This document shows positions 10,432 to 40,938 of a stretch of DNA of 64,000 bases, one piece after another (the first letter of the stretch is position 1; each line of letters starts with the position of its first letter). The notes below the pieces were generated by a model. The model ran no database searches and was not told where the DNA came from. It was given only the letters and a program-made list of their open reading frames with translations. The position numbers were made by a program, and so were the translations under genes. The stretch is taken from NCBI GenBank assembly GCA_026710545.1, contig JAPOQU010000045.1:1-64000 (forward strand), given 5' to 3'. This stretch comes from Gammaproteobacteria bacterium (GTDB taxonomy: Bacteria > Pseudomonadota > Gammaproteobacteria > Eutrophobiales > Eutrophobiaceae).

Positions 10432-10737
10432 TCAGAAAGGAGCTGAAACAATGCTTAACATATAATGAACAAGCATGCTGACCAGATCGATGTCGGCGAT
10501 GTTGAGGAGTTGATTATGGGCGACACCTGCCCTCAGAGACAAGTCTGCCTTGCGGTCACCCGGGACGCCCTCCAGCGGTGTCAGTGAGCAGACCGCCTTG
10601 TGCGGTTCGTTCATGGCAGGCAGGGAATGGTCATACCAGACGTCCTTCCATTTGCCGGATACCGTGCCGTGATCGAACTGGGCCTGCATCATGGCCCGGG
10701 AGACGGCCTGCGGGTCGCGGCGGAGCTCCTCGGGCAA
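10432..10737 (-). CDS. Doubtful small ORF or gene remnant in the mini-island
   Basis: A 101-codon frame beginning at TTG ('MPEELRRDPQAVSRAM'), and open about 20 codons further upstream without any ATG before an in-frame stop. The amino-acid mix looks protein-like (for example 'GTVSGKWKDVWYDHSLP'), but there is no good ribosome site and no family I recognise. It lies upstream of the fic operators on the same strand. It could be the tail of a gene truncated when the island formed. Low confidence that it is expressed. Confidence 0.3.
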   Translation of the reverse strand: MPEELRRDPQAVSRAMMQAQFDHGTVSGKWKDVWYDHSLPAMNEPHKAVCSLTPLEGVPGDRKADLSLRAGVAHNQLLNIADIDLVSMLVHYMLSIVSAPF

Positions 10738-10806
10738 GGTCTTTTTGAATGCGGCCCGCCGGCGGCTCTCTTCCTTGTTAATGTATTCAGTCAGTTACAA
10801 CTGTTA

Positions 10807-10826
10807 TCCCCCGTAGAGCGGAACGC
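10807..10826 (-). repeat. Right inner inverted repeat of the mini-island
   Basis: Reverse complement of 8809-8828 with one mismatch. It lies in AT-rich DNA between the doubtful small ORF and tRNA-Sec. Confidence 0.6.
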
Positions 10827-10905
10827 CTTTAAAATATCACAAACAGAAACACACATATCGTGACATAATATCAGTTTTGTAATGTTTTCAATTAGTTATA
10901 TAAAC

Positions 10906-10924
10906 ACATCGGCGGAGGTGGATG
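10906..10924. repeat. tRNA-proximal attachment-site-like direct repeat
   Basis: Second copy of ACATCGGCGGAGGTGGATG. Bases 10913-10924 are the 3'-terminal 12 bases of the tRNA-Sec gene, so the tRNA stays intact after insertion. Confidence 0.75.
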
Positions 10925-11002
10925 GGAATCGAACCCACCACTCGCGTTGGGCAAGTCACTGGTTTTGAAGACCAGGGAAGTCACCAGACTTCATTCACCT
11001 CC
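10913..11002 (-). tRNA. selC: tRNA-Sec (anticodon TCA)
   Basis: Read on the minus strand, the 90-base body begins GGAGGTGA and ends ...CCACCTCC followed by G. The anticodon arm 'CTGGTCTTCAAAACCAG' presents TCA (complement of 10966-10968), the T arm 'TGGGTTCGATTCCCA' is canonical, and the long extra arm accounts for the length. One A-C mismatch sits at the eighth acceptor pair. The genome encodes CCG rather than CCA after the discriminator, so CCA would be added enzymatically. It lies just downstream of selB, as in Pseudomonas. Together they indicate the cell decodes UGA as selenocysteine. Confidence 0.95.
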
Positions 11003-11030
11003 AGTCAGTCCATCTGTGGGGTCAGCTATA

Positions 11031-11062
11031 TTTGGGGTCAGAGCTATTGCTCTGACCCCAAA
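11031..11062. repeat. Palindromic repeat, family A (GGGGTCAGAGC), copy 1
   Basis: A perfect 14-bp stem (11031-11044 with 11049-11062) and 4-base loop, with an extra half copy GGGGTCAGC at 11019-11027. The same palindrome recurs at 62424-62463. On the minus strand it encodes the last residues and stop of SelB ('NLGSEQ' then TAG). Confidence 0.9.
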
Positions 11063-12975
11063 TTTTTGTTCCCCGGGTTCAGTTTGCGTTTGTCGCCGAT
11101 ACGGATGGTCACGCGCCGGCTGTCCAGGTATTCCAGCAAGGGTATCGCGTACTTTCTTGAAGTATCCACCAGTTTACGCGCGTCCGCCACGCTGAATGCG
11201 GTGGAACCGGGGTAGGCCTGTTCCAGCATGGTCACCATGCCCTCGATGCTGCGGCGGTGGAAAACCAGCACGCGGTTTGTGTCCCTGTTGTGTACCGGCA
11301 CAAGTTCGCCCGTATCGGCCAGGAGGCGGTACAGGCGTTTCCTCTGCGGGTTGCCCTGCAGGACTTCGCCGGGTTCGGGCGGTTTCAGGCCACCCGCGGC
11401 AAATGCCGAGGCGATATCCTCAGCTATCTTTTTCTCCTGTGGATTGAGCGCGCCCAGGGGATCGAAATCCCGCAGCCGGATAATGCTCTTGTCCGTCTGG
11501 AGCAGGCCTTGATCCACCAGGTGTTCAACCAGGAACCTGAAAACCGGTTCGTCCACGCCTGCTTCCAGGCCTGAACGGAACTCCGTCAGGGGTTGTCCTT
11601 GCCGGCCCGGGTTTGCCTCGTGAAACCGGCCGACCCCGGCCAGCGCCTGTTCGCACAGGCTGTCGAATGCCGATCTGGACAACAAGCGCTGCGGTCCTGC
11701 GAAAACAACTTCTGTCTTGTCCAGTCCCTGCAGCAAATCGTCCGCTGCCAGGTTCATGGAACGGGACAGCTCAGCCATATCCATCCCCCGTACTCCTGTT
11801 GCCCGTATCAACTCATCGACGACTTCCGCCGTGTCGCCGCTGGCCAGGTTGGCCAGGCGGGACACGGCGCTGTTGTCCGAGCGGCGGTGTTTTGCCGGGG
11901 AATTGTCCAGGATGCGGCCGCCGCCGATGGTTGTCACCGGCGACATGCTGCGCAGGATAAAATGTTCGCCCACGGGCACCGCCACGTCGCGCCGGCAGGC
12001 AAGCTGCGCCACGCATAATGAACCCGGCTTTGGTTGCCGCTCTCCCAGGATGCGCAGCGCCGCCGGTTCTTCACAGGTTCCGAACAGCACCCGGGCCATC
12101 TCGCCGTACCTGGGTTGCGGGCGTACCCGCTCCAGCAACTGCAACTCCACGTCCAGCAACCGGGTCGGTTCCAGGTATCCCGGGGAGGCCAGCGCATCGC
12201 CTCTTGCAACCTGTTCCCTGTCGATGTTACGCAGGTTGACCGCGACCCGCTGTCCGGGGTACGCAATCTCTTCGACCTTGTTATGGACCTGCAGTTGACG
12301 GATACGTGCGCGGCTGCCGCGCGGCATGATCTCGACCTCCTGGCCGTTTGCCAGGGTACCGTACCGCAGGGTGCCGGTGGCGACGGTGCCGAAGCCGGAC
12401 ATGGTGAATACACGGTCCAGCGGCAGGTAGCACTGGCCGCTATCCGCTCTTGCGGCGGGGTTGTGCAACTGCTTTTCCAGCAGGACCCGTAAATTGTTCA
12501 GGCTGCGTGCATCGTTCACGGATACCGCGATCACCGGCGCAGCTTCCATGAACGTGCCTGCCGTGAAACTGCTTATCTCGTCCCTGACCCGGTCGCAGCC
12601 GGCGTCATCGACCAGGTCGGACTTGGTAATCACTACCAGGCCTTTGACCAGGCCCAGGAAACCTGCAATGTTGAAATGTTCTTCCGTTTGCGGCTTGATC
12701 CCTTCGTTCGCGGCCACCGCCAGCAGCAGGAAGTCTATACCGGTGGCGCCGGATATCATCATGCGGATGAAATCCTCGTGACCGGGGACGTCAATGAAGT
12801 CGATGACGCCGCGTTCGGATTCAAGAAAGGCGAATCCGGGCACAATCGACAACCCTCTTTCCTTTTCTTCCCTGAGACGATCAGTTTCCATGCCCGTAAG
12901 CGCCCTGACCAGGCTGGTTTTGCCGTGGTCAACGTGCCCGAGTACGCCTACCGTGATGTGCGCGGGTCTATCCAT
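11044..12975 (-). CDS. selB: Selenocysteine-specific translation elongation factor SelB
   Basis: 643 residues. GTPase motifs are visible: G1 'GHVDHGKT' (13-20), G3 'DVPGHEDF', and G4 'TKSD'. Translation-factor beta-barrel domains follow ('LDRVFTMSGFGTVATGTL'), then the C-terminal winged helices that bind SECIS RNA in mRNA. SelB carries Sec-tRNA to the ribosome at UGA codons. The gene ends inside a palindromic repeat that contributes its last codons, so the natural C-terminus may have been slightly altered. selA, which precedes selB in Pseudomonas, is absent here: the next upstream gene belongs to an EthD/Rieske operon. Confidence 0.96.
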   Translation of the reverse strand: MDRPAHITVGVLGHVDHGKTSLVRALTGMETDRLREEKERGLSIVPGFAFLESERGVIDFIDVPGHEDFIRMMISGATGIDFLLLAVAANEGIKPQTEEHFNIAGFLGLVKGLVVITKSDLVDDAGCDRVRDEISSFTAGTFMEAAPVIAVSVNDARSLNNLRVLLEKQLHNPAARADSGQCYLPLDRVFTMSGFGTVATGTLRYGTLANGQEVEIMPRGSRARIRQLQVHNKVEEIAYPGQRVAVNLRNIDREQVARGDALASPGYLEPTRLLDVELQLLERVRPQPRYGEMARVLFGTCEEPAALRILGERQPKPGSLCVAQLACRRDVAVPVGEHFILRSMSPVTTIGGGRILDNSPAKHRRSDNSAVSRLANLASGDTAEVVDELIRATGVRGMDMAELSRSMNLAADDLLQGLDKTEVVFAGPQRLLSRSAFDSLCEQALAGVGRFHEANPGRQGQPLTEFRSGLEAGVDEPVFRFLVEHLVDQGLLQTDKSIIRLRDFDPLGALNPQEKKIAEDIASAFAAGGLKPPEPGEVLQGNPQRKRLYRLLADTGELVPVHNRDTNRVLVFHRRSIEGMVTMLEQAYPGSTAFSVADARKLVDTSRKYAIPLLEYLDSRRVTIRIGDKRKLNPGNKNLGSEQ

Positions 12976-24744: not shown

Positions 24745-25779
24745 GTGAAAGCATTGATCTATGAACAGCATGGCGGGCCGGAGGTGCTCCGCTACCGGGA
24801 TGTCGCCGACCCCGAACCGGGGCCGCGGGACGCGGTGGTCAAGGTCGCGGCAACGACGGTAAACCGCCTTGACGTCGCGCAGCGTAACGGCTGGTTCACC
24901 ATCCCCGGGTTCAGTCTGCCGCACATCTCCGGGATGGACGTTGCCGGTACGGTGATCGAGACCGGTTCGGACGTGACCGGCGTCAGACCGGGCGACCGGG
25001 TGCTGGTAAACCCGTCCATGTCCGAGGTGCCCGAAGGTTCAAAACTGGCGGGCCTGGACGACCTGTACGGTCTTCTCGGGGTCATCGGCGCTACCGTTGC
25101 AGGCGGTTACGCGGAGAAATGCCTGGCGCCGGACACCCACCTGTACCCGGTTCCCGACAGCATGCCGTGGCGCCATGCCGTCGTCTTCCCCACCTGCTGG
25201 ATGACGGCGCACCACGCCCTGTTCGATACAGGCGGACTCAGGGCCGGGGAGACGGTGCTTGTCCATGCTGCCGGCAGCGGCGTGTCCGTTGCCGCCATTC
25301 AATTGGCCGTTCAGGCGGGAGCGACCGTGCTGGCAACTGCCGGCAGCGGGGAAAAATGCGCGAAAGCCATGGAACTGGGCGCTGAAGATACCTGCAATAA
25401 CCGCACGGTCGACGTGGCGGCCTGGGCCCGGGACATGACCGGCGGCGCCGGTGTCGACCTGGTGTTCGACCACGTGGGCGAGGCGTTGTGGGAAGCTTCA
25501 CTGATGGCGCTCAAGCCGCGCGGGCGGCTGGTGACCTGCGGCAACACCTCGGGAAATACAGCGCCTATCCCGAACCTCGGTTACCTGTACAGCATGGGCC
25601 TGAAAATCCTGGGGTCCGACCCGTATCGTTACGGGGAATTCGGGCCGGCCTGGGAGCAGTATTGTGCAGGCGACTTCCGGGCGGTCGAGGACAGCGTATT
25701 TCCCCTGTCCGAGGGAGCGCAGGCGCAGGAGAAAATGCTGAGCGGCGAGTTTATCGGGAAGATCCTGCTGGAGCCGTGA
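24745..25779 (+). CDS. Quinone oxidoreductase-like medium-chain dehydrogenase
   Basis: 344 residues starting at GTG after GGGAG. The N-terminal 'MKALIYEQHGGPEVLRYRD' and the NADPH-binding 'VLVHAAGSGVSVAAIQLA' (a GxGxxG-like AAGSGV loop) are typical of zinc-independent quinone oxidoreductases and related enoyl reductases. The structural zinc Cys cluster is absent. Substrate unknown. The 3' end overlaps the stop of the convergent metallopeptidase gene by 29 bases, marking the left edge of the defence island. Confidence 0.9.
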   Translation: MKALIYEQHGGPEVLRYRDVADPEPGPRDAVVKVAATTVNRLDVAQRNGWFTIPGFSLPHISGMDVAGTVIETGSDVTGVRPGDRVLVNPSMSEVPEGSKLAGLDDLYGLLGVIGATVAGGYAEKCLAPDTHLYPVPDSMPWRHAVVFPTCWMTAHHALFDTGGLRAGETVLVHAAGSGVSVAAIQLAVQAGATVLATAGSGEKCAKAMELGAEDTCNNRTVDVAAWARDMTGGAGVDLVFDHVGEALWEASLMALKPRGRLVTCGNTSGNTAPIPNLGYLYSMGLKILGSDPYRYGEFGPAWEQYCAGDFRAVEDSVFPLSEGAQAQEKMLSGEFIGKILLEP

Positions 25780-26107
25780 ACAGGTGGTTAAGGGTTTTAC
25801 TGACGCGCTGCTTGTCCGTTGAATACTTCTTCCAGTCAGGCAAATGAACGGTCATCAACGCCTTGAACAGTTTCCCATGGTTGGGGACTCGCAGGTGCAA
25901 CAGTTCATGCGCAATGACAAAGTCCTGAAAACCCCGCTCCTGCTCAGCCAGGTCGACGGCGAAAGTAACTATCCCGTTTGTTGAGCAGGAACCCCACTTC
26001 CTGGTCATAGACTGGACGCGTATTATCCGGGGACAGATGTCCAGCCGTAGTGACCAATAATCGACACGATCGCGAATGAGTCGACGCTTTTCCTCACGAA
26101 TACGCAT
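25751..26107 (-). CDS. YgjP/SprT-like (DUF45) zinc metallopeptidase
   Basis: 118 residues. '[21 protein letters not shown]' shows the HExxH zinc site (here HELLH) and the downstream His of the YgjP-like group. 'MTRKWGSCS' is the conserved segment before it. The frame runs further upstream inside hsdR, but the ATG at 26107 overlaps the hsdR stop by 14 bases, indicating translational coupling. Such genes are often the last gene of type I restriction operons; their role there is not established. Confidence 0.85.
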
Positions 26108-29057
26108 CGGCTTCGTTATCAAGCATGATTTTGAGCATGGTCTCGACAATTCGAAGGCGTTCCGTTCCTTCAACGGCAAGAAGAGGATGATAAAGAGCAG
26201 CCCGCAACCTCCGCTGTTCGTCGGCATTTAAGGCCGCGTTCGGAAAGCGTTCCAAAAGCGCCTCCGCCTCCTGAGCCAGTGAGATCGCTTCAACACCAGC
26301 CACCTTGAGCGTCTCGTCATTCCTGAGCGTCCAGTACAGGCCGAATGCACGGGTTGTCAGGTCACTGTTTCTCGCAGCTTCAATCGCTTCCTGTTTCTCC
26401 TTTGCCAGTTCCGCCAGGCGGTCCAGCGCGGCAAGGCTGGTCGTTTTGTGGTTCTCGAGTGCCTCAATGATCTGTTCAGCACGCTCTTTGAGCGATTGCA
26501 GCACGGGCGCCAGGTCCGGGTTGGCATCCATCTCGGCCTTAAGGCCCCGCACCAGGTTGAAGACCTTGGCCTCGTTCGACCCCGGTTCGCGCTGAAGCGC
26601 TTCGAGGGTACGCACGTCAAATGTCACCGTCCTGAGCAAGTCTCCAAGACCTTCCTGGGTGAGGCTGTCCTGCACCATTTCCCGCGTCTTATTGGCCAGG
26701 TCTATATCGGGTTTCGCCTTGAAATCGTAGTTATTCCTCACCGCGGCATAGAGTTGGGCAAGCCACTTGTAGGTTTCAATATGATCGCGGAGTTCCGGTG
26801 AAGGGGATAGAATCTCCCATAATGCCTCGATCTCCTTGTAGGCTTCAAAAAACGCCTTGCGAGGCCCCGGTTCCAGGAACCTTCCATAGATAATGTTTTC
26901 GAGGCGCTCGTCCGCACTTCCACTTCCCTCGCTGCCTTCAAGATAGTCAGATTTCGTTCTGGCAAGTTTATCGAGGAGATTCTCCAGAAGGAGATCAAGG
27001 TCTTCGACCACACCGCTTACGTCCAAAGAGTCGAACTGTAGCGCCTTCTTCATCTCCCGCAGGACGCCCACAAAGTCGATGACGAGACCGACGCGTTTGC
27101 GCCTGCCTTCTGCGTCCACGTAGGGACGGTTCACGCGCGCAATCGCCTGGAGCAGAACGTGATCGCGCATCGGTTTGTCCAGATACATGCTGTAAAGCAG
27201 CGGCGCGTCGAAGCCTGTCAGCAGCTTATCGGTAACGATGAGAATCTTCGGGTCCTCGTTCGGCTTCTTGAACATCAGGCGTATGTCCGCTTCACGTTGA
27301 GGAGATAGCTGAAGCTCGGCAACGAGCGGCCTTTTGACGACATCTTCGACATTCTCCGTATATACCGGCGCGGTCCATTCCGGCGGCAACAGCTTGTCGA
27401 GCGCGCGTTTGTACCTGGCGCAGGCCTCACGGTTGACCGCTACCAGGAACGCCTTGTAGCCGAGCGGCGCTACGTTCTCCCTGAAATGCTCGGCGACGAA
27501 TGCTGCAACCTTTTCTATCCGGTCGTCGGCGGTGAGGAACGTTCGCAGTCCCACGGCTCTCTCCAGGACGCGGTTCAACTCTTCCACATCGGTGATGCCT
27601 TCCATGTCAGCCAGGGCGAAAAACTCCCTGTCGAGTTGCTCCGCCGGCACCGTCATCTCGCTCGGCGCCATGGTATGGCGGATCGGCAACGTCGTCTCAT
27701 CCTCTATCGACTCTGCTATCGAGTACTTGTCCAGGTAGCCCTGGTCGTCATCAGTTCCGAAGATCTTGAAGGTTCCTTCTCCATGTGCGGTGCGTGCGAT
27801 CGGCGTTCCGGTGAACCCGATGATGGTCGCATTCGGCAGCGCGGCCATGAGATACATGCCCAGGTCCCTGGCCACCGAACGGTGCGCCTCGTCGATGAAC
27901 ACGTAGATATTGTCGCGGAGGTTGGCGTCCTTCTCGATGCCCTCGAACTTGTGGATCATCGAGAGGATCAATCCTCTTTTGTCAGTCGTGAGCAGGTCCC
28001 GCAAGTCCGCCCTGGAGTTGGCCTGCCAGACGGCGATGTCCTGCTGCTGCATCTCACCCAGCAGTCGTTCGACCCAGCCCGCAAGCTGGCCTTCCAGTTC
28101 CAGGCGATCCACGACGACAACTACAGTCGGCGTGTGAAACTCGTCCCTGGCCTCCAGGATCAGGCGGGCGGCGGTGAGCAGCGCGAAGGTCTTGCCGGAC
28201 CCCTGGGTATGCCAGACGAGACCGCGCCGTTTCACAGGCTCGGCGCAGCGTTCGATGATACGCTGCACCGCGCGGCGCTGGTGCTGGCGCAATACCGACT
28301 TCCGCGTCTCGCCGTCTTCGACGTAGAAGAGAATCCAGTCGCGCAGCGTGCGCAGGAAGTCGGTCGGTTCGAAGAACGATTGAACTGTAAACCGGTAGCT
28401 GTCCTCGGGTTGTTCCTTCCAGCGCGCCATGAAGCGCCGCGATAAATTCCAGGTGACGCCGTACCAGTAATCAAGCAGGTGGGTTACGTTGAAGATCTGC
28501 ACCGCTCCCACCAGTTCGGGAGTCTCGTGCTCATAGCGCCGTAACTGCGTAATGCCCCGCTCTATGGCGTTGGTGTCCGTCGGGTTCTTGTGCTCGACGA
28601 TGGTGATCGGCACGCCGTTGACCACGAACATCACGTCCGCGCGATTGCCCTTGCGAGCGGGCGGCTTGAGCCGCCACTCCCAGGTCACGTGCAGGGCGTT
28701 CGCCGACGGGTCGTCGAAGTCAACCAGGCGCACCGGCCGGTGGCGCTGCTCGACCTCGTCATACCACTGCCGCTCGCCACGTAACCAGGCCAGCATCTTG
28801 CGATTGCCTTCTATGGTCGGCGGCAGCGCCTGGAGGTTTTCTATCACCGAACGGATGGCGTTGTCTGTCATCCAGGGATTGAAGCGGCGCAACGCACCTT
28901 CGATCTCGTTTTGAAACAGCAGCCCGGCTTCGCCCCCTCTCATGGCAAGGGCATCCTGTGGAGACAGGGGGGTCCAGCCGACTTCCGCGGCGTGGCGGAC
29001 CATGGGGAACTGGACGGTAACGGCTTCAGTGATACTGATATCAATCACAGGAGGCAC
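26094..29057 (-). CDS. hsdR: Type I restriction enzyme, R (motor/nuclease) subunit
   Basis: 987 residues, normal for HsdR. The N-terminal nuclease has D141 and 'ITIVEHKNP' (E155-x-K157) of the PD-(D/E)xK fold. The SF2 motor shows Walker A '[12 protein letters not shown]' (283-294), 'FIDEAHRS', and 'GFTGTPI'. The start is GTG with no clear ribosome site; expression probably relies on the upstream operon. HsdR translocates DNA and cuts when bound with HsdM2-HsdS at unmethylated sites. All motifs are intact. The AlbA-type gene lies about 185 bases upstream and the metallopeptidase overlaps the 3' end. Confidence 0.96.
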
Positions 29058-29205
29058 TCACTGATTTTCAGTGTGGCCGATAAATCAGCTTGACACACAT
29101 CTTCATTCGGTATCATAATCCGCCTCGTTTAAAGTCCTCTTCTGGTGACGGCAGCCTAAAGGGCTGCTCCCGGGTGACCAAGGAGAGGCGACCGATAGAA
29201 TAAGA

Positions 29206-29249
29206 CCCCTATCTCGCCCCTATCTCGCCCCTATCTCGCCCCTATCTCG
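29206..29249. repeat. 11-bp tandem repeat, four units
   Basis: CCCCTATCTCG repeated four times without interruption (29206, 29217, 29228, 29239). The last unit provides the stop (TAG on the minus strand) of the AlbA-domain gene. Such an array could vary in copy number by slippage. Confidence 0.9.
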
Positions 29250-30651
29250 CCCCGCCCGGCCTGCGCATCCAGCGCGTCAACGGTCCGCGATCTGTGGACA
29301 CGATCAGCCCCCTGTCTCTCAACTCCTCCAGTGCCCTTCGCACTTGTCGGTCACTGACGCCAGGCCCCAAATGGGCGCCAATTTCACGGCGGGTCATTCC
29401 ATCCTCAGCCTGCTCCAACAGGGCAAGAATCGCCTTTTGCCGTCCGGCTGGCCTGTCCCAGGCATGCTGTTGCGGCACGAATTGGCCGTGTCTGAAGCGT
29501 ACCGCGACCCAACTGCCGGCATCTTCGATTTCAAGGGGAGGAAGCCCCGCTTCGTCCACCAGTTCCACCATCTTGAGGGTCCCGCCACCCCACACCTCAA
29601 TGATCCCGCGCCGGTAGAAAGTGTGGGCAATCAAGGGATTCCATGGCTTGGACTCGTGCGGTTCGAACAGGTCCTCAGGAGTCATCCCGAAATGCAACGA
29701 ACCGGGGGAAGTCACTTCCAAGCGGTCGGCGTAGATGGCCACCCCTATCGACCCGCCATGAATCGTGTAATCGCGGTGGCACAGGGCATTAGCCAGCGCT
29801 TCCCGCGTCGCAGGAGGCGGATAGAGCGGTTCGTCTATCCGCTGGATGCGATCAGGCTCGAACCGGGCAGCTATGGGAAGGCTGTCCCGCAGGAATCGCC
29901 CGGCGTGGGACAGCAGTGAGAAAGCATTACCATGGAATTGCCGATTATCCAGGAATTCCATCTTGTCGATGCCCCGAAAACGGGCGACGCGCAACTTACA
30001 CTGCGGCATCTCAAACCCAAGACGTTCCTCCTTGCCGAACAGCACCGCCGCCGCCCGAAGCAATACACCGTCTTGCAAGAGTCCAAGCCCGCGCAACAAA
30101 TCAACCGGTTCCCGACTCGGCGGCTCATCCAGACGACCGATCCTTACAGCCTCGGCAACTGTATTTCGAATTTCCGCCACGTCCAGGTCATCCACCGACC
30201 ACCCGTCAGCGGGCTGGTTCTCCCAGCGGTGTTCCTTGTGCATGCGCTCCATGAGCATCTGCTCGTACTCATAAGCCGACATTTTAACTGTTGTGTTACC
30301 GACACGGCGGTAGGCAGCGCCGTGGTAAGTATATGGTCTCGATGTCCCGTGGTCCGTACTGACCGCGATAACTTCACGATCACCCTCTACAGGTATTCGT
30401 TCGACCGTCGGAAAAGCCGGAGGGTCGATTTGCCGAAGCTCGGCGCTCAACTCCTCGATGGTGCGCTCGCTGACCTGTTGCCCGACCATGACCCCGGTCG
30501 GCGTCACACCGAACAGTACCTGCCCGCCTTGCTGGTTCAGGAAGGCGCAGACTGTCCTGGCTGCCTCGCGGCGCGTCCCGGTCGTCTCTTTGAACTCCAG
30601 CCTTTCAGACTCGCCGCCGACAGCGAGGGCTGCGATGCCACTGATGTTCAT
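29242..30651 (-). CDS. AlbA (Schlafen-type) ATP-binding domain protein in the hsd operon
   Basis: 469 residues. The N-terminal AlbA_2 domain has 'ESERLEFKETTGTRREAARTV' style opening, 'AFLNQQGGQVLFGVTPTG' and a later RecG/HATPase-like region ('ATREALANALCHRDYTIHGG', 'VTSPGSLHFGM', 'WNPLIAHTFYRRGIIEVWGGG'). The C-terminus is a winged helix ('GMTRREIGAHLGPGVSDRQVRRALEEL' region). This family is common inside type I restriction loci and may be regulatory. Start chosen at the ATG 30651, preceded by AAGGG; the frame is open 12 codons further. Confidence 0.85.
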   Translation of the reverse strand: MNISGIAALAVGGESERLEFKETTGTRREAARTVCAFLNQQGGQVLFGVTPTGVMVGQQVSERTIEELSAELRQIDPPAFPTVERIPVEGDREVIAVSTDHGTSRPYTYHGAAYRRVGNTTVKMSAYEYEQMLMERMHKEHRWENQPADGWSVDDLDVAEIRNTVAEAVRIGRLDEPPSREPVDLLRGLGLLQDGVLLRAAAVLFGKEERLGFEMPQCKLRVARFRGIDKMEFLDNRQFHGNAFSLLSHAGRFLRDSLPIAARFEPDRIQRIDEPLYPPPATREALANALCHRDYTIHGGSIGVAIYADRLEVTSPGSLHFGMTPEDLFEPHESKPWNPLIAHTFYRRGIIEVWGGGTLKMVELVDEAGLPPLEIEDAGSWVAVRFRHGQFVPQQHAWDRPAGRQKAILALLEQAEDGMTRREIGAHLGPGVSDRQVRRALEELRDRGLIVSTDRGPLTRWMRRPGGAR

Positions 30652-30697
30652 CAACGAACCCTTCTCCCAGTTTCTTGGATACGCCAAGTGGAATAGC

Positions 30698-31447
30698 TCA
30701 TGGTGTTTTCCCCAGTATCAGTTCATTCCAGTTGGGTTCTTCGCTCTCATTCATCCGTTTCATGATCCCTTTACGGCACAGGTCTTGAGCCATCAGCGAG
30801 TAACTGAGGAACGTCGTTTCATATTCGAGCGATAGTTTGGCTTTGCCCAGGTACATCACGTCGCTGTAATGAAATCGCACGGAGGAGGGAACATGGAGGG
30901 GAATCTGGTCTGACGAACTAGGTAGACTCGCAATACGCACTGATGGATTCAGATCCAAAGGTTGTTCAACAGATATACCGTCAAGTAGAATGTGCCGCCA
31001 GTATCGAATAGGTTTATCTTCTGCCCACTCCAAAAGCATTTGCGCTGCACGGAATGGCCCAAGAATAGCTGCTGCAAGTATGAGTAGCTGAACGAATCTG
31101 GATACTTCCAACTTGGTCACACCACCCATCAGTGGGGTTAACTTGTTCGGTATAGAATCTTCATCAGAGATCAGATAGGCGCTCAATATGGACCGCACGC
31201 CTTCAGCCAGCGCGGACAGCAACTGGTCGTTTACCAGTGATTTGGCGGAGTGTACTGCGGTAATGCTCATATCGTTACCGGAAAAGTATAGTTGCTGAAT
31301 TTGTGCTGGCGTGTACTTACCCCACTTGCCCGCATCGAATGTAGCAGCCTGCAGGATGTTGTTCAGAAGATCAGCGAACTCCTGATGTGAATTCTTGATT
31401 TCAGTCGCTATTGCAGCCACCTGTCCCGATAGGCTGTTTCGCGGCAA
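30698..31447 (-). CDS. Unknown protein of the restriction operon
   Basis: 249 residues, overlapping the 3' end of hsdS by 47 bases on the same strand. The N-terminal half is helical and the middle ('VQLLILAAAILGPFRAAQML') is hydrophobic enough for one membrane or buried helix. No family recognised. Its position between hsdS and the AlbA gene, with tight coupling, implies a role in or protected by the restriction system, such as a regulator or an added defence component. Confidence 0.7.
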   Translation of the reverse strand: MPRNSLSGQVAAIATEIKNSHQEFADLLNNILQAATFDAGKWGKYTPAQIQQLYFSGNDMSITAVHSAKSLVNDQLLSALAEGVRSILSAYLISDEDSIPNKLTPLMGGVTKLEVSRFVQLLILAAAILGPFRAAQMLLEWAEDKPIRYWRHILLDGISVEQPLDLNPSVRIASLPSSSDQIPLHVPSSVRFHYSDVMYLGKAKLSLEYETTFLSYSLMAQDLCRKGIMKRMNESEEPNWNELILGKTP

Positions 31448-32718
31448 TCGCCGCTAAGTCCAACTCATCCACACTAATCTCCCCCGTCATCAGCTTGTGC
31501 AACAGCGCCTTGAACAGAGCCTCTAGCACGGCGTGTTTGCGACGGTGCAATTCAATCTTGTGGTCTATGGTGTCGAGAACCGCGACAATCTCTCGTTGCT
31601 CACTGAGTGTGGGGGGTAGCGGGAGTTGGAGGCTGTCGATTGCTGCTGTATTCAGGTTGAACTTGCCATCTGAAGCCGAAATGGCTCTAGCAGACACGAT
31701 GCTGGTTCCCACTTCAGAGCCAAAGAAAGCTGCGGCGAAGTGGGGAGTGACGTATTCTTGCTTTACCCTGGCACGAATCAGATACGATGCGAATAAGGCT
31801 TTAGCAGGATTTCCATCGTAGACGGCGCAAGATCCAAGACGATCCAGTACTCCATTCGTTCGAATGAAGATCAGATCACCGACTTCAAGCTGATACTTCG
31901 CGGCATCATTGCCTGTGAGCGTACAGTACTTAAGATCATCTGCGGTAACACGTTGCGGTTCAATGTTCGGGATACGAAGCACTGGATGTCCAGATACGTC
32001 ATATGTGCACCGGACCGACGTACCATATTGAAGCTTCTCCCGCACGGATGCAAAGGTGACGAAATTCCAGCTCTCCGGTATTGGCCCGATCTCTGTCTCT
32101 CTCTGCGTCTCGCCACGTAAGCCGCAAGTGAACAGTGTCCGCATTGCGGAGCGTTTGAGATTGTTGGCCGCCTGTATGGATTGCATCTCAACGGCCTTAA
32201 GACACTGGATCATCTCCAAAGAGTCTGCAATCGCAGCCTGTTCTTCCTGTTTGAACTTTGGGAACGGTAGCTCAATGAGTACATCCTGAGGTACGCGCTG
32301 TCGCCCGGTCGCTCCTTCCATGCGCCCGGCTATATGATGGCGGACATCGGGGTGTAGCAAATAGAAGAACAATAATCGCTTGTCTTGCCCTTCTTTACAT
32401 GGTCGAAGTGGGATGACCTCTGTTGTTGCGAAGCCGAAATGTGTAGGGAGATCGGTCACGAGGGCCTGCTTTCCGTTCTCGAACGATGGCGTAATCTTGG
32501 CAATGAGGGCGTCTCCGCGCTCAAAGTAGGTTCCGCTCCTGATCTCGCCTGGGGGCCTCATTGTGTAACCGGGCGCATACGCGCCGCCTGACGGAATGGC
32601 ATCCATTGGTACGAACGGAACCTCGGGCAATGAAGCTACATCAAGCCCGCGAGGCTTTTTCGTAACCTCGTAGGCATCACCCAACCGGAACCACTGGCGA
32701 CCTTCAGGGAGTTGAGCT

Positions 32719-32732
<14 letters not shown>
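31401..32732 (-). CDS. hsdS: Type I restriction enzyme, S (specificity) subunit
   Basis: 443 residues with the two-repeat HsdS layout: a first target-recognition domain, a conserved helical spacer ('[20 protein letters not shown]'), a second recognition domain, and a second spacer ('[20 protein letters not shown]'). The ATG at 32732 is preferred over an upstream one in the same frame: AGGAG lies six bases before it and it overlaps the hsdM stop by 14 bases. The target sequence cannot be predicted by eye. Confidence 0.94.
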
Positions 32733-34566
<1,834 letters not shown>

Positions 34567-34570
34567 GTTT

Positions 34571-34602
34571 GCAATATAGCATATTTGTATTGCTCATGTC
34601 TA
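34571..34602 (-). promoter_or_regulatory. hsdM promoter with imperfect operator dyad
   Basis: On the minus strand TAGACA (34602-34597), an 18-base spacer, and TATATT (34578-34573); the predicted start falls on the hsdM ATG. The dyad GCAATA-N11-TATTGC (34571-34593) overlaps the -10 and spacer. Related ATATTTGTAATATAT sequence continues into the first codons. Fits autorepression by the HTH domain of HsdM. Confidence 0.5.
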
Positions 34603-34751
34603 CAATTTTTTACGATAAAGGCAAGGTGAGTTCACTTAGTCGGATTTCTCACCAGGCGGTGCGATCTTCGCATCAATTGGTATGAGATATTCGGGTTAGC
34701 GGGAGCCGCTGGATCTCAGGCCCGCCGTTCCCGTCGGCAGGCCCGCCGTTA

Positions 34752-35297
34752 TCAGACTTCCGGGGCGTCGGCGGGGCCGGCAGCCGTACCCAGGTGGGTT
34801 TCTATGCGTATGACGCGTTCGCGCACGTCAATGACGGCATCTCTCAAGGTGTCTGTCTCAGCCCGTATCTCAGCGTGCTCCGCCTGCATCTCAGCCCGTA
34901 TCTCAGCGTGCTCCGCCTGCATCTCAGCCCGTATGTCGGTGTGCTCCGCCTGCATCTCAGCCCGTATGTCGGTGTGCATTGCCTGCATCTCAGCCCGTAT
35001 GTCGGTGTGCATTGCCTGCATTTCGGAGCGCAGATCGTCCCGTATCGCGGCGTGCTGCGTTTCCATAGCCACCCGCAAGTCCGTGACGGCCGTGTACAGG
35101 AAGGTAAAACCGCCGAGGATGGCGGTCAGGGTAAACGCCCCCATCCACAAAGCCAGCTGAAATTCGCCCCAGCGCACCACATCATCGCCCGGACGACCGA
35201 AGCGGCGGGCGGCGGGGCGCGACACCGCGCTCTCTTGCCGAGTCTCATCGCCCAGGGTGGCAGTATCAGGGTGTATGTTACTCATTGTCGTTTCCAT
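34752..35297 (-). CDS. Membrane protein with five-fold hendecad coiled-coil repeat
   Basis: 181 residues from the ATG at about 35297, which follows GGAGGTGAACCAC; the frame is open 25 codons upstream. One membrane segment ('LALWMGAFTLTAILGGFTFLY') at about residues 48-69 is followed by an 11-residue unit M-Q-A-(M/E)-H-(T/A)-(D/E)-I-R-A-E repeated five times and a short helical tail. Eleven-residue periodicity gives a nearly straight or right-handed coiled coil. The protein probably forms an oligomeric rod anchored in the inner membrane. It lies between hsdM and the four-gene cassette; no function is known. Confidence 0.75.
   Translation of the reverse strand: METTMSNIHPDTATLGDETRQESAVSRPAARRFGRPGDDVVRWGEFQLALWMGAFTLTAILGGFTFLYTAVTDLRVAMETQHAAIRDDLRSEMQAMHTDIRAEMQAMHTDIRAEMQAEHTDIRAEMQAEHAEIRAEMQAEHAEIRAETDTLRDAVIDVRERVIRIETHLGTAAGPADAPEV
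34857..35021. repeat. 33-bp coding tandem repeat, five units
   Basis: Units start at 34857, 34890, 34923, 34956 and 34989, all exactly 33 bases, differing at a few positions. They encode the 11-residue coiled-coil units of the membrane protein; outer neighbours are most alike, indicating recent duplication. Confidence 0.95.
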
Positions 35298-35549
35298 GTG
35301 GTTCACCTCCATGGCCTTATCCGTTCTGTCCGGCGCGGCTGCGATCAGCGGTCGCAACGGCACCCCTTCCATGCCGGCGGTTCATTGACCGACGCCGCCA
35401 GCCTTATGGTGAATTATAGCCGGGCAGGCAGAAAGATCAAGCATGTCTGGGGAAGGTCAGCGGGAACTGCTGGTCCTTTATTATGTCTCTGGCAGCGGCA
35501 GATTAATCATGGTATGCTGTACTCAAACTATTCTGGAGGTGAGTGAAAA

Positions 35550-35651
35550 ATGTCAATAAACCGCCCCGCGTCTTCAGGAGTTACCTCACCGTTCGCGCAT
35601 GACGCCCGGCCACCCGCCGCCGGCAGCGTGCGCTCAGCGCATCCATCGTAA
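35550..35651 (+). CDS. 33-codon leader-like ORF before the defence cassette
   Basis: ATG at 35550 preceded by a near-perfect GGAGGTGAG, encoding 'MSINRPASSGVTSPFAHD' and 15 more residues before TAA. It overlaps the start of the next ORF in a different frame. It may be a leader peptide coupling translation, or the original start of the first cassette gene, now separated by a frameshift. The strong ribosome site contrasts with the poor one of the downstream ORF. Confidence 0.4.
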   Translation: MSINRPASSGVTSPFAHDARPPAAGSVRSAHPS

Positions 35652-36489
35652 TATCCGGGCCAGGTTGTCTCCGGCAGCGTGCGCAGTGGTCAGCTTCGAA
35701 CAAGCCTGCAGTGATACTGAAAGTGCCGCCGAGGCGGCGCGGAAGTCCGCCGGCAACGTGGTCTCGCAAGCCCGCGCGTTGGCGAAAGCCGCACAAACCG
35801 GCAACATAGCAAGCATCAAGCGCTGCCGGGAGAAGTTGAATGAAGCCTTGACGGCGCTCCGGCAAGAGGTCTCGAACGCTGGCTCCTGCTGGCCGTTCTC
35901 GGACGAGGAAGAACAACTGCTCTTCGGTGAACGGTACACCGACGCGATCAAAACCGTTGCAGAGGCAAAGGGGTTGAGTATTCAGGAGCAGGACGAACTC
36001 TTGATCTCCTATCCGTCTATTGTACGGATACTTCCGGCGGAACGTGCGGTGAGAGTGGATAAAAAAAGGGTATTCACGGCAAGGCCCTCGTATCTTGTCG
36101 ACCTGCTTCTTGCGAACCAGAAAAAATCCAGCGGCTTTCCTCCGCAACGCTTTCTTGAGTCTCTGTATGGCGTTTACACCGATATTGTGGATAGATCGTC
36201 TTCGGACACTTTGTCGTCGAGGAGCGGGAGCGTTGTGCCCCTCGCCAGGATCTATAAGCTGATGACGGCTCTCCCGGGCGCCGCTCGCGACTATGATCGC
36301 AATGACTTCGCCCGCGACCTGTACATACTGGATTCGAACGGGCCGCAACGCACCAGGAATGGCGCCACAGTCTCTTTCCCCTCATCTACCGGAACCCGGA
36401 GGCGTTCGCGCGACCTGTTCTCCTTCATCGGGCCGGAGGGCGATAACGCCGAGTATTATGGAATCCGATTCAGCGAGAGCGACGGATGA
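35599..36489 (+). CDS. Defence cassette gene 1, unknown protein
   Basis: 296 residues as an open frame from the ATG at 35599; the true start may lie downstream, since the first 30 residues are low-complexity Ala/Pro/Arg and there is no ribosome site. The middle is helical ('ARKSAGNVVSQARALAKAA', 'REKLNEALTALRQEV'), followed by 'RPSYLVDLLLANQKKSSGF', and the end is polar ('RSRDLFSFIGPEGDNAEYYG'). No domain is recognised; a TerB-like fold is not evident to me. It overlaps gene 2 by four bases (ATGA), so it belongs to the operon. Confidence 0.65.
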   Translation: MTPGHPPPAACAQRIHRNIRARLSPAACAVVSFEQACSDTESAAEAARKSAGNVVSQARALAKAAQTGNIASIKRCREKLNEALTALRQEVSNAGSCWPFSDEEEQLLFGERYTDAIKTVAEAKGLSIQEQDELLISYPSIVRILPAERAVRVDKKRVFTARPSYLVDLLLANQKKSSGFPPQRFLESLYGVYTDIVDRSSSDTLSSRSGSVVPLARIYKLMTALPGAARDYDRNDFARDLYILDSNGPQRTRNGATVSFPSSTGTRRRSRDLFSFIGPEGDNAEYYGIRFSESDG

Positions 36490-37445
36490 CCAAAGCTATC
36501 CCGGTAACCGACTGGGTGCGCCATATAGACCGCGAGTACCTGTCGACGTTCACCAGGGACGGCGGCGGCGCCGTCAAGTTCGCGGTAACCGCCGGGGAAC
36601 GAATGCCGGGTCTTATCGAGGAGTTGCAAGCCCGTTGCGCAGAGCGGGAACACCTGTTTGTGGCGTTGGATGCGCTCACGAGTCGCGTCCACATGCCGCA
36701 GGACCTCTTTTTCGGACTGGCGTCACAACTCGAATGGCAGCTCCTTGCGCGCCGCGTGGTCCTGCGTCTGTTATCAAAGCAAGCCTACCTGGTCGATGGT
36801 ATCGACCCGAACGGCAACGTCAACGTCATCGACGCTGTCGCCCGCGCCAACGGTATCGAAGCACAGTCCGTCCTCATTGAGTTGCGACCGGCCCTGGAGC
36901 GCGAGGTAACCAGGAACGCAAACATGGCCAAAGCCTTTCGTGTGGCCATGACCCATCTTTGCCTTTTCGAGAGGGAGCGCGCGGCGCCGGGGGAGTATGC
37001 CGGGCAGCCGCTGCTGGACTGGCTGACGGGCGCCAACACCCGGATAAGCAATATCAAGCCGTTCCATATCCACACGCCTATCAACCGCACGACGGCGCGC
37101 TATTTCATCGAATCGGCCCTTTATTGGGTGCGTTACGCGGGATATTCAGGCACTCTGATTCTCCTGGACAACACCCGCGTCACCCTGCCCCGCAACCCGA
37201 AGGACGGAACGCGTTACTACACACGGGCGATGACCATAGAACACTATGAGCTGCTTCGGGAATTTATCGATGACGTGGACCGGTTGCCGGGAACATTGCT
37301 GGTCGCGCTGACCGACTACACGTTCGTCGATGAGCAATCGATGAGAGGCTGGGGCATCTACCCCGCTCTTCGCACCAGGGTGATGGATGACGTTCGTGAC
37401 AGAAACATCGCCAATCCGGTGGCGGCCCTGGTGCGGCTTTCATAG
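36486..37445 (+). CDS. Defence cassette gene 2, ATPase-like protein lacking Walker motifs
   Basis: 319 residues. It appears to be a degenerate relative of the ATPase encoded by gene 3. Where gene 3 has the P-loop GDFGSGKS, gene 2 has 'FAVTAGERMPGLIEELQ' at about 32-48, with matching strand-helix order around it. Where gene 3 has 'GYRGWVVFLDEVEL', gene 2 has 'GYSGTLILLDNTRV' (219-232), so the Walker B acid pair DE is DN. The nucleotide site is therefore probably dead. It could be a structural partner forming mixed rings with gene 3. The relation is by my visual alignment, not a computed one. Confidence 0.65.
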   Translation: MTKAIPVTDWVRHIDREYLSTFTRDGGGAVKFAVTAGERMPGLIEELQARCAEREHLFVALDALTSRVHMPQDLFFGLASQLEWQLLARRVVLRLLSKQAYLVDGIDPNGNVNVIDAVARANGIEAQSVLIELRPALEREVTRNANMAKAFRVAMTHLCLFERERAAPGEYAGQPLLDWLTGANTRISNIKPFHIHTPINRTTARYFIESALYWVRYAGYSGTLILLDNTRVTLPRNPKDGTRYYTRAMTIEHYELLREFIDDVDRLPGTLLVALTDYTFVDEQSMRGWGIYPALRTRVMDDVRDRNIANPVAALVRLS

Positions 37446-37457
37446 AGGCCGGAGCCA

Positions 37458-38732
37458 ATGACTCCTGGCGCAGACGAAAAACTCGCGGCCCGGTTGGCGG
37501 TGGAAGCCTTGCGCAACGGCGTGCCGAACAGAGAGGCTGTACGCGAATTGGGCTGCAACCAGGCGCGAGCCGAAGATAATTTTATCGGCCTGCTGGATGG
37601 AGTAGCGGACAGCCGAAGCCGGGAGGCAGGTTCTCGGGGAATGCTGGTTTCCGGAGACTTCGGCTCGGGAAAGTCCCATCTCCTGGTGCACCTGGAGCAT
37701 CTTGCTCTCTCCCGAGGCTTCGTTTGCAGCAAAGTGGCAATCAGCAAGGAGACTCCTCTCTATGACCTGGGGAAGGTATTTTCGTCGGCCATGGAAAACG
37801 GTCGGATTCCCGACCGGCGTGGACGATTTATCGAAGAGATCGCGCTATCCCTGAAGCCGGAATCCGAAGAATACGCGGCCTTTTCTCAATGGGCCGACGG
37901 CGCTGCTACCGACGGCCTTCTGAACATGATCTTTCCCGCCAGCCGGATCGTACACGAGCGCTCGGGAGACCTGGAGCTTAATAGCGAGATCGAATCCTTT
38001 TGGGCGGGAGACCGGATGCTGATTTCCAGGCTTCGTAACGGACTGAGACAGGTCGACCAGTTGCAATACTATAAATTTCGTGCGCCGAAACCCGCCGACC
38101 TCCCGGTACAGCGATTGCGGTTCGCCATCGAATTGATCAAAAGCGCCGGCTATCGGGGCTGGGTTGTGTTCCTGGACGAAGTAGAGTTGATCGGTTCGTA
38201 TTCCATATTGCAGCGTGGTCGTTCTTACGCGGAAATTGCGCGCTGGATGGGACTTGCTCAAGGAGAAAGTTATCCCGGCCTGGTTGTAGTCGGCGCGGTG
38301 ACGGAGGATTTTGCCTCCGCCATCATCAGCCCGGACGGACAAAAGAAGGACGGCGACTACGTTCGGCCGAGACTCGAACAGAGCGCAAAATACGGCGTTC
38401 TCAGCGCCCGCGCCGAGAGTGGTATGCGGTTGCTGGAGCGGGACTGTCTGACCCTTGAACCGCCCAGCGACGAGACTGTGAAGACTGCCGTGGAAACATT
38501 GCGTAGTTTGTACAACAGGGCTTACGACTGGCAACCGCCGTCTTACGATGCGACGGCCGGGGGAGCGGGCTTCCAGGGACGGATGCGTTACAAGGTGCGC
38601 GCCGCCATCAACGAGTGGGACCTGCGTCGGCTGCACCCGGGCTACCGGCCCGACACCGAGTTTGAAGATTTCACCACTCCGTATGAAGAGAACGCCGACC
38701 CGGAGCGCGAAACCAGTGACGAGCCTGTGTAG
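37458..38732 (+). CDS. Defence cassette gene 3, P-loop ATPase (BrxD/DUF2791-like)
   Basis: 424 residues. The N-terminus 'AVEALRNGVPNREAVRELG' precedes Walker A 'GDFGSGKSHLL' (66-76); Walker B is 'GWVVFLDEVEL' (D240, E241), and a sensor-like 'LVVVGAVTEDF' follows. This is the layout of BrxD-type (DUF2791) ATPases of BREX and Ter-linked systems, where they pair with a helicase. It lies 12 bases after gene 2 and 35 before the helicase gene. DNA-dependent ATPase activity in phage defence is inferred from family and context. Confidence 0.85.
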   Translation: MTPGADEKLAARLAVEALRNGVPNREAVRELGCNQARAEDNFIGLLDGVADSRSREAGSRGMLVSGDFGSGKSHLLVHLEHLALSRGFVCSKVAISKETPLYDLGKVFSSAMENGRIPDRRGRFIEEIALSLKPESEEYAAFSQWADGAATDGLLNMIFPASRIVHERSGDLELNSEIESFWAGDRMLISRLRNGLRQVDQLQYYKFRAPKPADLPVQRLRFAIELIKSAGYRGWVVFLDEVELIGSYSILQRGRSYAEIARWMGLAQGESYPGLVVVGAVTEDFASAIISPDGQKKDGDYVRPRLEQSAKYGVLSARAESGMRLLERDCLTLEPPSDETVKTAVETLRSLYNRAYDWQPPSYDATAGGAGFQGRMRYKVRAAINEWDLRRLHPGYRPDTEFEDFTTPYEENADPERETSDEPV

Positions 38733-38767
38733 AGTACGCTCCCTGCGGGTTTAGGCGAGGATTTGAC

Positions 38768-40843
38768 GTGCCTGTTCCCTTCCACGACACAAGTGGATCT
38801 GGGAGTGTCGGCGCGGTCGGGTGGCTGCGGTTTGTCGGCGAACAAAACGGCCGGAGCGTTCGCGCCGCCCTGTTCGAGACTTCGGCGCGGGGAGATCCCT
38901 TGGGGTTCAGCTTCGACGGAATGGAGTATCAGGGCGCTACCAGTGAGCGCGCGTCGTTGTCCTTGGCCAAGTCATTGTTCCGATCGTCCACTGCGGCGCC
39001 TGCCTTGCTGTTCGGCCTGGCTGAGGAAATACCCTCGCGCTGCTTCGACGTCCTGAGCATCGGATTGCCCTTTTGCCGCGTTCATCCAGCATCGGTAGCG
39101 CGCAAGGACGTCGTGTCAGGCAGAGCGCCTGGTGGCCCTGGGATGCTCTGGGTGACAGGTCCCCCCGCGCCGGAATCGAGCGCCGGAATGATTCTCGCCG
39201 AGATTATGCAATGGGATGACCCGTTTGAGCCGTTGGAGCGGGCTGCCCGGGGTCTGGCGGAAGCGTTTACCGATCCCCGCGTCAGGGCGTTGACCGCAAT
39301 CCCAGGGTTGAGAACAGTGATCGCGTTGCCGCTTCGCCTGGCGAATAGCGGGATGCAGGTAGCCCGCGACGCTGCAACTCCCGCGCCCGGACCCATGGAA
39401 GCGTTGGGAGAACGCGCCGAATCCGGACTGGCCGAACGGCTGTGGGCGGCGCTGGCCGTACCGCGTCCGGTTCCGCCTCCTCCTCCGGACAAGCAGCTGG
39501 AGTGGCCTGGCGTACTCATGCCGTTCCAGCGCGACGGTGTTCAAGCGCTGGTCGGGATGGATCGGTTGTTGCTGTCGGACGACATGGGCCTGGGTAAGAC
39601 GGTGCAGGCAGTTGCGGCGCTACGGATTCTCAGGGTCAGGGGAGAAATCGAGTCGTGTCTCGTGGTAGCCCCGGCCGGTGTGCTTGACCAGTGGCGGCGG
39701 GAGCTCGCGCGCTGGGCGCCGGATCTCAGCGCAATCATCATCCGCGGCTCAGCGGATGACCGGGCATGGCAATGGAGGGCCGGAACGGACATTATACTGG
39801 TGAGCTACGACGTCATGCGTTCGGATGCGGGGTTGCTTGCGGCGTGCCGGGGCCTCAAGGGAGTATGGGACGTGGTCGTGCTTGATGAGGCCCAGAAAAT
39901 CAAGAATCGCAACGACACGAGCGAGGCCGCGAAGGGTATCCCGAGAACGCGATCGTGGGCGTTGACCGGCACTCCCATCGAGAACGATGAGGAGGAACTG
40001 GCATCCATCATGGAGTTCGTCGACCATGACCAGGGAATGCCGCGCAAACGCTATCGCCCCGGCGCGTCGCTGCTGCAGCGGCACGCTGAGTTGCAGCTGC
40101 GGCGCAAGAAGGGGGATGTGCTGGACGATCTTCCTCCGAAGCTGGAAACCAGGTTAACAATCCCCCTGCGCCGGGAACAGCGAGAAAGTTACGAAAAGGC
40201 CGAGCGCGAAGGGGTCGTCTACCTGAGGTCGCTCGGTGCGGAAGTCGGCGTCAGGCACGTGCTGGAGCTGATCACCCGGTTGAAGCAAATCTGTAACGCC
40301 GACCCCAGGACCGGCGCGTCCGGCAAGCTGGACGACATCGGGGACAGGCTGAGGACGCTGACGGCCCGGGGCCACAAGGCCCTGGTTTTCTCTCAGTACA
40401 CAAGCAGCGCCTCGGGTGTGGCGGCTGCGGCCAAGCACCTGCGGGCGTTCAATCCGCTGACCCTGACAGGGGATATGCCAGCGGAGCGCCGCTCGGTCAC
40501 TATAAATCAATTCAAGACCGGAGAGGCCCACAAGGTGCTGATCATATCATTGCGAGCGGGCGGCCTCGGTCTTAATCTGCAGGAAGCATCCTACGTATTC
40601 CACCTGGATCGTTGGTGGAACCCAGCCGTGGAGCGGCAGGCTGAAGACCGGACTCACCGCCTGGGCCAGACAGTCAAAGTGAACGTGATCAAATATACCT
40701 GTGAGGATACCATCGAAGAGCGTATCGACCGGATCCTGGAACGAAAGCAGGCATTGTTCGACCGCCTGATTGATGATGTGTCGATGGACCTTTCGACACG
40801 AATGAGCCGCAAGGAATTACTGGGGCTGTTTGGCCTGGAGTAA
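38768..40843 (+). CDS. Defence cassette gene 4, SNF2-family helicase
   Basis: 691 residues starting at GTG. An N-terminal domain of about 230 residues, without recognised motif, precedes a full SNF2 motor: 'LLSDDMGLGKTVQA' (motif I), 'VVLDEAQKIKNR' (DEAQ box, motif II), 'ALTGTPIEN' (III), 'ALVFSQYTS', 'LRAGGLGLNLQ' (V), and 'DRTHRLGQTVKVNV' (VI). SNF2 motors translocate on double-stranded DNA without unwinding. The N-terminal domain may bring the motor to its target or contact the ATPases. It is the last gene of the cassette. Confidence 0.9.
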   Translation: MPVPFHDTSGSGSVGAVGWLRFVGEQNGRSVRAALFETSARGDPLGFSFDGMEYQGATSERASLSLAKSLFRSSTAAPALLFGLAEEIPSRCFDVLSIGLPFCRVHPASVARKDVVSGRAPGGPGMLWVTGPPAPESSAGMILAEIMQWDDPFEPLERAARGLAEAFTDPRVRALTAIPGLRTVIALPLRLANSGMQVARDAATPAPGPMEALGERAESGLAERLWAALAVPRPVPPPPPDKQLEWPGVLMPFQRDGVQALVGMDRLLLSDDMGLGKTVQAVAALRILRVRGEIESCLVVAPAGVLDQWRRELARWAPDLSAIIIRGSADDRAWQWRAGTDIILVSYDVMRSDAGLLAACRGLKGVWDVVVLDEAQKIKNRNDTSEAAKGIPRTRSWALTGTPIENDEEELASIMEFVDHDQGMPRKRYRPGASLLQRHAELQLRRKKGDVLDDLPPKLETRLTIPLRREQRESYEKAEREGVVYLRSLGAEVGVRHVLELITRLKQICNADPRTGASGKLDDIGDRLRTLTARGHKALVFSQYTSSASGVAAAAKHLRAFNPLTLTGDMPAERRSVTINQFKTGEAHKVLIISLRAGGLGLNLQEASYVFHLDRWWNPAVERQAEDRTHRLGQTVKVNVIKYTCEDTIEERIDRILERKQALFDRLIDDVSMDLSTRMSRKELLGLFGLE

Positions 40844-40890
40844 GGACTTTCGCTGTTTTGCAACTGCCGCCCGATGGTTGGGCGCGGACA

Positions 40891-40938
40891 CTGGATTCCG
40901 GCTTGTGCCGGAATGACGAGAGGGGCCGGAATGACGAG
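40891..40938. repeat. REP-like palindrome (GGATTCCGGC), family E
   Basis: ATTCCGGC-TTGT-GCCGGAAT (40895-40914) followed by GACGAG and a partial second half, GGCCGGAATGACGAG (about 40924-40938). This sequence type, CTGGATTCCGGC...GCCGGAATGACG, is widespread between bacterial genes. It separates the helicase gene from the convergent VOC gene. Confidence 0.75.

Follow-up and report, generated by a model that had tools for sequence, protein, structure and literature searches.

The presence of four closely packed genes beside a restriction-modification operon in a gammaproteobacterium of the family Eutrophobiaceae (assembly GCA_026710545.1, contig JAPOQU010000045.1, positions 1 to 64,000; this whole stretch of 64,000 nucleotides is referred to here as the window) raises the question as to whether these genes form a defence module of their own. 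The products are a protein without a family match, two related ATPases and an SNF2-family translocase. From the genomic context and the relatives of the cassette we consider it probable that it is an undescribed module for defence against mobile elements, most plausibly phages, in which the ATPase pair would load or license the translocase. Its genes, G1 to G4, are as follows.

35686..36489, + strand: G1, a 267-amino-acid protein without family match, conserved in 14 close copies and with 13-20% identity in tandem-ATPase cassettes elsewhere
36486..37445, + strand: G2, a 319-amino-acid degenerate BrxC/D-family AAA+ protein (putative pseudo-ATPase), PF10923 1.4e-9
37458..38732, + strand: G3, a 424-amino-acid BrxC/D-family AAA+ ATPase with Walker A and B intact, PF10923 4.4e-19
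38768..40843, + strand: G4, a 691-amino-acid SNF2-family translocase, PF00176 8.7e-43, Helicase_C 5.1e-20

According to the open reading frame list of the window all four genes lie on the + strand, G1 and G2 sharing four bases (ATGA, 36486-36489) and the following genes being separated by 12 bases (G2 to G3) and 35 bases (G3 to G4), the same co-orientation and tight spacing that an earlier model's reading of the letters alone (the sequence-only reading) had reported. That reading began G1 at 35550, which the homologues do not bear out. Their alignment places the start at GTG 35686, giving 267 amino acids, rather than at 35550 or at ATG 35599, because the residues N-terminal to 35686 are not conserved and the equivalent codon is the exact first codon in two other copies (L044 and L048; L numbers denote loci and three-digit G numbers genomes). 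Sigma-70 promoters and terminators showed no excess over shuffled expectation.

Whole-genome and contig searches followed by six-frame profile searches recovered the close cassette at L042-L056, with about 42-94% identity, in Gammaproteobacteria, a metagenome-assembled genome of Rhodobacteraceae, several Caldilineaceae, one Entotheonella and one Dehalococcoidia. These roughly 15 other genomes hold intact and partial copies in the same gene order, L052-L055 being partial or degraded and G4 being split in L049; L057 consists of a G3 fragment only. Intergenic distances are near-constant across the close copies and the pairwise identities of G1 to G4 correlate (Spearman rho 0.71-0.85), the conserved order and correlated divergence together indicating that the four genes move and evolve as a unit. 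Against the closest copy (L042) the ratio of nonsynonymous to synonymous substitution rates (dN/dS) is 0.11-0.19 for the four genes, all under purifying selection. Such a recurrence of order and spacing in many genomes is far beyond chance. Among 400 sampled Chloroflexota genomes 27 matched a G2 profile, 16 of them strongly and over nearly the full length (~4% of the 400), and these more divergent copies have the order G1-G2-G3 followed, where the contig extends, by a G4 that is usually split into a protein of ~160-200 amino acids and an SNF2 helicase (L130-L133, L135, L136, L140). The sequence-only reading had made its case dependent on whether the four-gene order recurs in other genomes, and it does, across phyla. 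Three of the seven genomes of the window's genus carry the cassette. In L047 a fragment of a second, G4-like SNF2 gene (3904-4236) lies upstream of the intact helicase, which suggests repeated turnover of the cassette. Viral contigs gave no relative of G3 by single-protein or profile search, and plasmids gave only a distant Aulosira cassette and BREX- or Shango-type proteins, with nothing for G2 or the N-terminal region of G4. Most of the close copies apparently come from sponge symbionts, judging by sample codes that match sponge genera in PMC8163846; restriction and CRISPR genes have been reported to be enriched in such symbionts (PMC8163846).

G2 and G3 are paralogous ATPases of the BrxC/D family with an ORC/Cdc6-like character. 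Both exceed the Pfam gathering score of 22.2 bits for PF10923 (BrxC_BrxD) and are thus members of the family, G2 at 37.8 bits (1.4e-9) over residues 128-318 only and G3 at 69.1 bits (4.4e-19). PADLOC matches G3 to BrxD (5e-15) and more weakly to SngB (2e-7, over 57 residues), and on the NCBIfam BrxD model, with a cut-off of 350 bits, both proteins fall far short (G2 32.7, G3 55.4). G3 carries a Walker A motif, GDFGSGKS, and a Walker B motif, FLDE. Of 17 G3 sequences 16 have these patterns and the one without them is a fragment; none of the 16 close G2 sequences has them, which agrees with the earlier description of gene 2 as dead-ATPase-like and of gene 3 as an active BrxD-like ATPase. In 31 pairs from more distant cassettes each of the two ATPases, A and B, keeps Walker A and B. 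G2 scores against the distant ATPase A and not B, and G3 scores best against ATPase B (103 vs 41 bits), G2 being the orthologue of ATPase A, minus the C-terminal region of the latter, and G3 the orthologue of ATPase B. Within the Chloroflexota set every G2 lacks Walker A except that of L143 (GRPGSGKT), which branches at the root of the G2 clade (Shimodaira-Hasegawa-like approximate likelihood ratio support 98) in a quick tree in which several rows are fragments. With L143 basal and the distant ATPase A intact, the activity of ATPase A therefore seems to have been lost once in the G2 line and the decayed protein kept. Despite the loss G2 is under purifying selection (dN/dS 0.14), and its predicted structure, with a mean predicted local distance difference test score (pLDDT) of 88, has an ORC/Cdc6-like fold (Z 10.8, root-mean-square deviation 3.2, 167 aligned residues) and also resembles TnsC and BrxC.

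For G1, nothing significant was found in Pfam, PADLOC, NCBIfam or PDB sequences. Its AlphaFold2 model (pLDDT 87, predicted template modelling score 0.71) combines an N-terminal helical hairpin with a small region of beta structure and, at the C terminus, a domain of helices and strands, possibly a winged helix. Fold searching gave no match. The VIA-align rows lie mainly on the hairpin, at values that pairs of helices would be expected to give, and we therefore make no claim that the fold is either known or new; a weak condensin row for residues 148-265 (Z 6.7) was not used. G4 belongs to the SNF2 family by its Pfam matches (SNF2 8.7e-43, Helicase_C 5.1e-20), and the motifs DDMGLGKT, DEAQ, ALTGTP and DRTHRLGQ are conserved among the copies. 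Among defence models ZorD and DpdE come closest, with alignment confined to the helicase core, and the nearest solved SNF2 structures are largely chromatin remodellers. In many Chloroflexota members residues ~1-175 of G4 are a small protein in their own right, and the window's G4 corresponds to a fusion of this small protein with the SNF2 helicase.

The position of G4 is filled differently from cassette to cassette. SNF2 proteins occupy it in most copies, in L130, L132 and L135 with a C-terminal Mrr nuclease whose motif RDGG(V/I)DL...QCK is intact. McrB and McrC take the place in L056, BrxHI/SngC-like helicases in L006 and L036, and, in Desulfobacterota, Latescibacterota and others, a protein of ~1900-2200 amino acids that carries a Ski2-like helicase at its N terminus and a superfamily 1 (SF1) helicase at its C terminus. 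G1, G2 and G3 would thus form a constant core, with a motor or nuclease as the variable output. The gammaproteobacterial copy L051 has an extra 344-amino-acid protein (10302-11336) between G3 and G4 with no Pfam match; by eye only, it resembles a degenerate HsdR-N-type domain. The gene after the helicase in two genus relatives (L042, 6785-8557; L054, 13147-15045) encodes a SWIM zinc-finger/DUF6880 protein, which was considered as a fifth component. The window's genome contains no match to it and a copy occurs in G005, a genome in which G3 was not found, so that it is treated as an optional neighbour. A larger second family of cassettes (L058-L092), with G1, two Walker-intact BrxC/D ATPases and a dual helicase, occurs in Desulfobacterota, Latescibacterota, Gemmatimonadota and gammaproteobacterial symbionts.

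The site of the cassette was compared with two genus relatives by blastn of their loci L113 and L112 against the window, which set the boundaries of an island as listed below with the neighbouring operon.

26094..34566, - strand: type I restriction-modification operon, adjacent to and divergent from the cassette and not part of it (family searches)
34611..40925, no strand: stretch absent from G001, comprising the cassette and a gene at 34752-35372 (- strand) (blastn)
25777-40925: whole island absent from G003 (blastn)

The operon, with HsdM (32719-34566), HsdS (31401-32801) and HsdR (26094-29057), places the cassette beside a type I restriction system as first noted. In G003 window position 25776 is joined directly to 40926, with neither operon nor cassette at the site, a frameshifted cassette being found elsewhere in that genome. 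In G001 the restriction-modification operon is present, with a different HsdS and extra genes, and 34610 is joined to 40953 via a short unrelated stretch without the cassette. One relative being empty, one having the operon only and the window having both, the site, flanked by alcohol dehydrogenase on one side and glyoxalase/TonB genes on the other, is a defence hotspot of variable content, into which the cassette has been inserted as a discrete, independent and horizontally moving unit. Target-site duplications, transposon ends and recombinase genes were looked for at the insertion ends and none was found. At the right edge (40907-40938) there are two copies of the extragenic repeat GCCGGAATGACGAG.

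Several further features lie in or around this region. The small gene at 34752-35372 (- strand), upstream of the cassette and divergent from it, encodes a membrane/coiled-coil protein whose AEIRAEMQAEH units come from a tandem repeat of 33 bases, and short transmembrane and coiled-coil proteins of similar build are found near a degraded cassette in L008. Inside the type I operon, 29242-31447 encodes a Schlafen-AlbA/RecG-like HATPase protein and a 249-amino-acid protein without family match. ARAGORN predicts a selenocysteine tRNA gene at 10911-11002 (- strand) of the window.

Other copies have different restriction or defence genes nearby, namely an HNH_2 endonuclease (L045, with similar open reading frames in L046 and L047), an AspBHI-like enzyme (L048), an NgoFVII-type phospholipase D nuclease (L129), GmrSD (L130), and PglZ, BrxD and a helicase of a BREX-2-like operon (L006), a list which describes the loci and is not an enrichment test. 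Two other explanations were weighed. The SNF2 proteins and ORC/Cdc6-like loaders that work in repair and replication, together with the chromatin remodellers nearest to G4 and the several copies without defence neighbours, could be taken to indicate a DNA-repair, replication-restart or nucleoid-remodelling module whose AAA+ pair would load the SNF2 remodeller at sites of damage or stalling in the DNA of the cell itself. This is unlikely, given that the cassette is patchy within the genus, spread over phyla and inserted in a defence hotspot, and that its motor is fused to, or exchanged for, the restriction nucleases Mrr and McrBC. We regard it as similarly improbable that the cassette is an accessory without independent activity, delivering DNA to, or regulating, the adjacent type I (or HNH, AspBHI or GmrSD) nuclease. 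Restriction enzymes do adjoin many copies and the window's form has no nuclease of its own, but the neighbour changes from copy to copy (type I, HNH, AspBHI, GmrSD, McrBC or none), G001 has a type I operon at the same site without the cassette, and the Mrr-bearing relatives need no partner nuclease.

Defence against mobile elements by loading or licensing of a translocase is thus the explanation that we favour. ORC/Cdc6-like AAA+ proteins commonly load or position machines on DNA, as ORC/Cdc6 does for MCM and TnsC for transposases. Taken together with the role proposed for BrxD in BREX type 2, as loader of the BrxHI helicase (PMC12839542), this favours a loader that senses foreign DNA. G2 and G3 would assemble into an ORC/Cdc6-like AAA+ hetero-oligomer, with ATP hydrolysis confined to G3 and G2 serving as a structural or sensing pseudo-ATPase, and G1 would be an adaptor or DNA-recognition subunit. 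Upon recognition of foreign double-stranded DNA the assembly would load or license G4, whose ATP-driven movement would attack the invader. The fused Mrr of divergent relatives and the McrBC of one member could supply a nuclease step; for the form found in the window, either translocation alone may block the invader or a neighbouring restriction nuclease may be used.

A number of observations weigh against this explanation. G1 is without a fold match from which DNA binding could be inferred, the window's G4 has no nuclease domain and the form of the cassette there no nuclease of its own, and the nearest function, that of BrxD, is itself only a proposed one. Most copies sit in metagenome-assembled genomes, L043, L044, L049, L050 and L055 have no recognised defence gene nearby, and L114, L134 and L137 show no helicase directly downstream. 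We put forward more tentatively the possibility that the cassette represents a distinct and widespread type of immunity, with a pair of ORC-like AAA+ proteins, one active and one dead, that senses foreign DNA and loads an exchangeable effector (SNF2, SNF2-Mrr, McrBC or Ski2-type helicase), the dead ATPase being retained as a sensing or scaffolding subunit. ATPases of the BrxD/SngB type recur beside helicases in BREX and Shango, and with a pared-down cassette of four genes, in which one copy is live, one is dead and the effector is naturally exchanged, the proposed role as loader could be tested directly. The cassette would also extend the defence repertoire of Chloroflexota and sponge symbionts with a system missed by current detection tools.

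How does the cassette compare with known systems? Profile searches agree with the sequence-only reading that it contains no BREX methylase, PglZ, BrxC or TerB. For BREX, a search of the whole assembly with PF08665 gave 0 matches to PglZ; PF10923 at E<=1e-5 in the cassette's own genome matched nothing beyond G2, G3 and the SngB locus of contig C13; and no BrxX/PglX methyltransferase is present in the cassette, the neighbouring methylase being HsdM of the type I operon. The likeness to the BrxD-BrxHI part of BREX type 2 lies in the close linkage of a helicase with an ORC/Cdc6-like AAA+ ATPase of the BrxD family, but PglZ (genome-wide), BrxC and the BREX methylase are lacking and G2 and G3 are under the BrxD cut-off. 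With Shango the cassette shares a PF10923-family ATPase beside a helicase in a compact operon, but it has no TerB, two ATPases, one of them predicted to be catalytically dead, instead of one, and an SNF2 instead of a Ski2/BrxHI-like motor. TerB/SngA had no match in G1 to G4, the TerB matches of the genome being on C13, C76 and C80, and SngC is not among the 25 best PADLOC matches of G4. A complete canonical Shango is present elsewhere in the window's genome (L037, 5949-12360, which is G000 contig C13, 27948-34359), with PADLOC matches of 5.9e-95 for SngA, 7.5e-178 for SngB and 1.4e-270 for SngC.

Although the PF10923 family and a superfamily 2 motor are shared and BrxHI/SngC-like helicases serve in the related cassettes L006 and L036, it is very unlikely that the cassette is merely a divergent subtype of Shango or of BREX-2 BrxD-BrxHI, as no TerB, PglZ or BrxC accompanies it, one of its two ATPases is apparently dead, its motor is SNF2 and not Ski2-type, the quick tree sets G2 and G3 apart from the BrxD (100) and SngB (100) clades, and a real Shango is present separately in the same genome.

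The SNF2 core of G4 aligns with ZorD of Zorya (PADLOC 3.8e-71; NCBIfam 142 bits, with a cut-off of 1500) and the relatives L130, L132 and L135 share the SNF2-Mrr layout, whereas the cassette has an ATPase pair and G1, the window's G4 has no nuclease domain, and ZorA and ZorB had no match among G1 to G4, the value of 0.022 for a coiled-coil neighbour being at chance level. The tandem-ATPase dual-helicase cassettes (L058-L092) show the same order of G1, ATPase A, ATPase B and motor, but both of their ATPases keep the Walker motifs and their motor is the ~1900-2200-amino-acid Ski2-like plus SF1 protein; this type is not a named system in PADLOC 2.0 or in the literature searched. That search, with most subscription papers and bioRxiv falling outside it, found no paper on the cassette of the window. 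G1 is assigned to no system in PADLOC, Pfam or NCBIfam, and G2 is only a BrxD relative far under cut-off. Because PglZ, BrxC, TerB and ZorA/B are absent from the cassette, its motor is SNF2 and the genome has a true Shango at another locus, it is not BREX, not Shango and not Zorya, and with its gene order conserved the suggestion that it may be a distinct system stands; we would place it with the PF10923 ATPase-plus-helicase defence modules, as a probably undescribed form.

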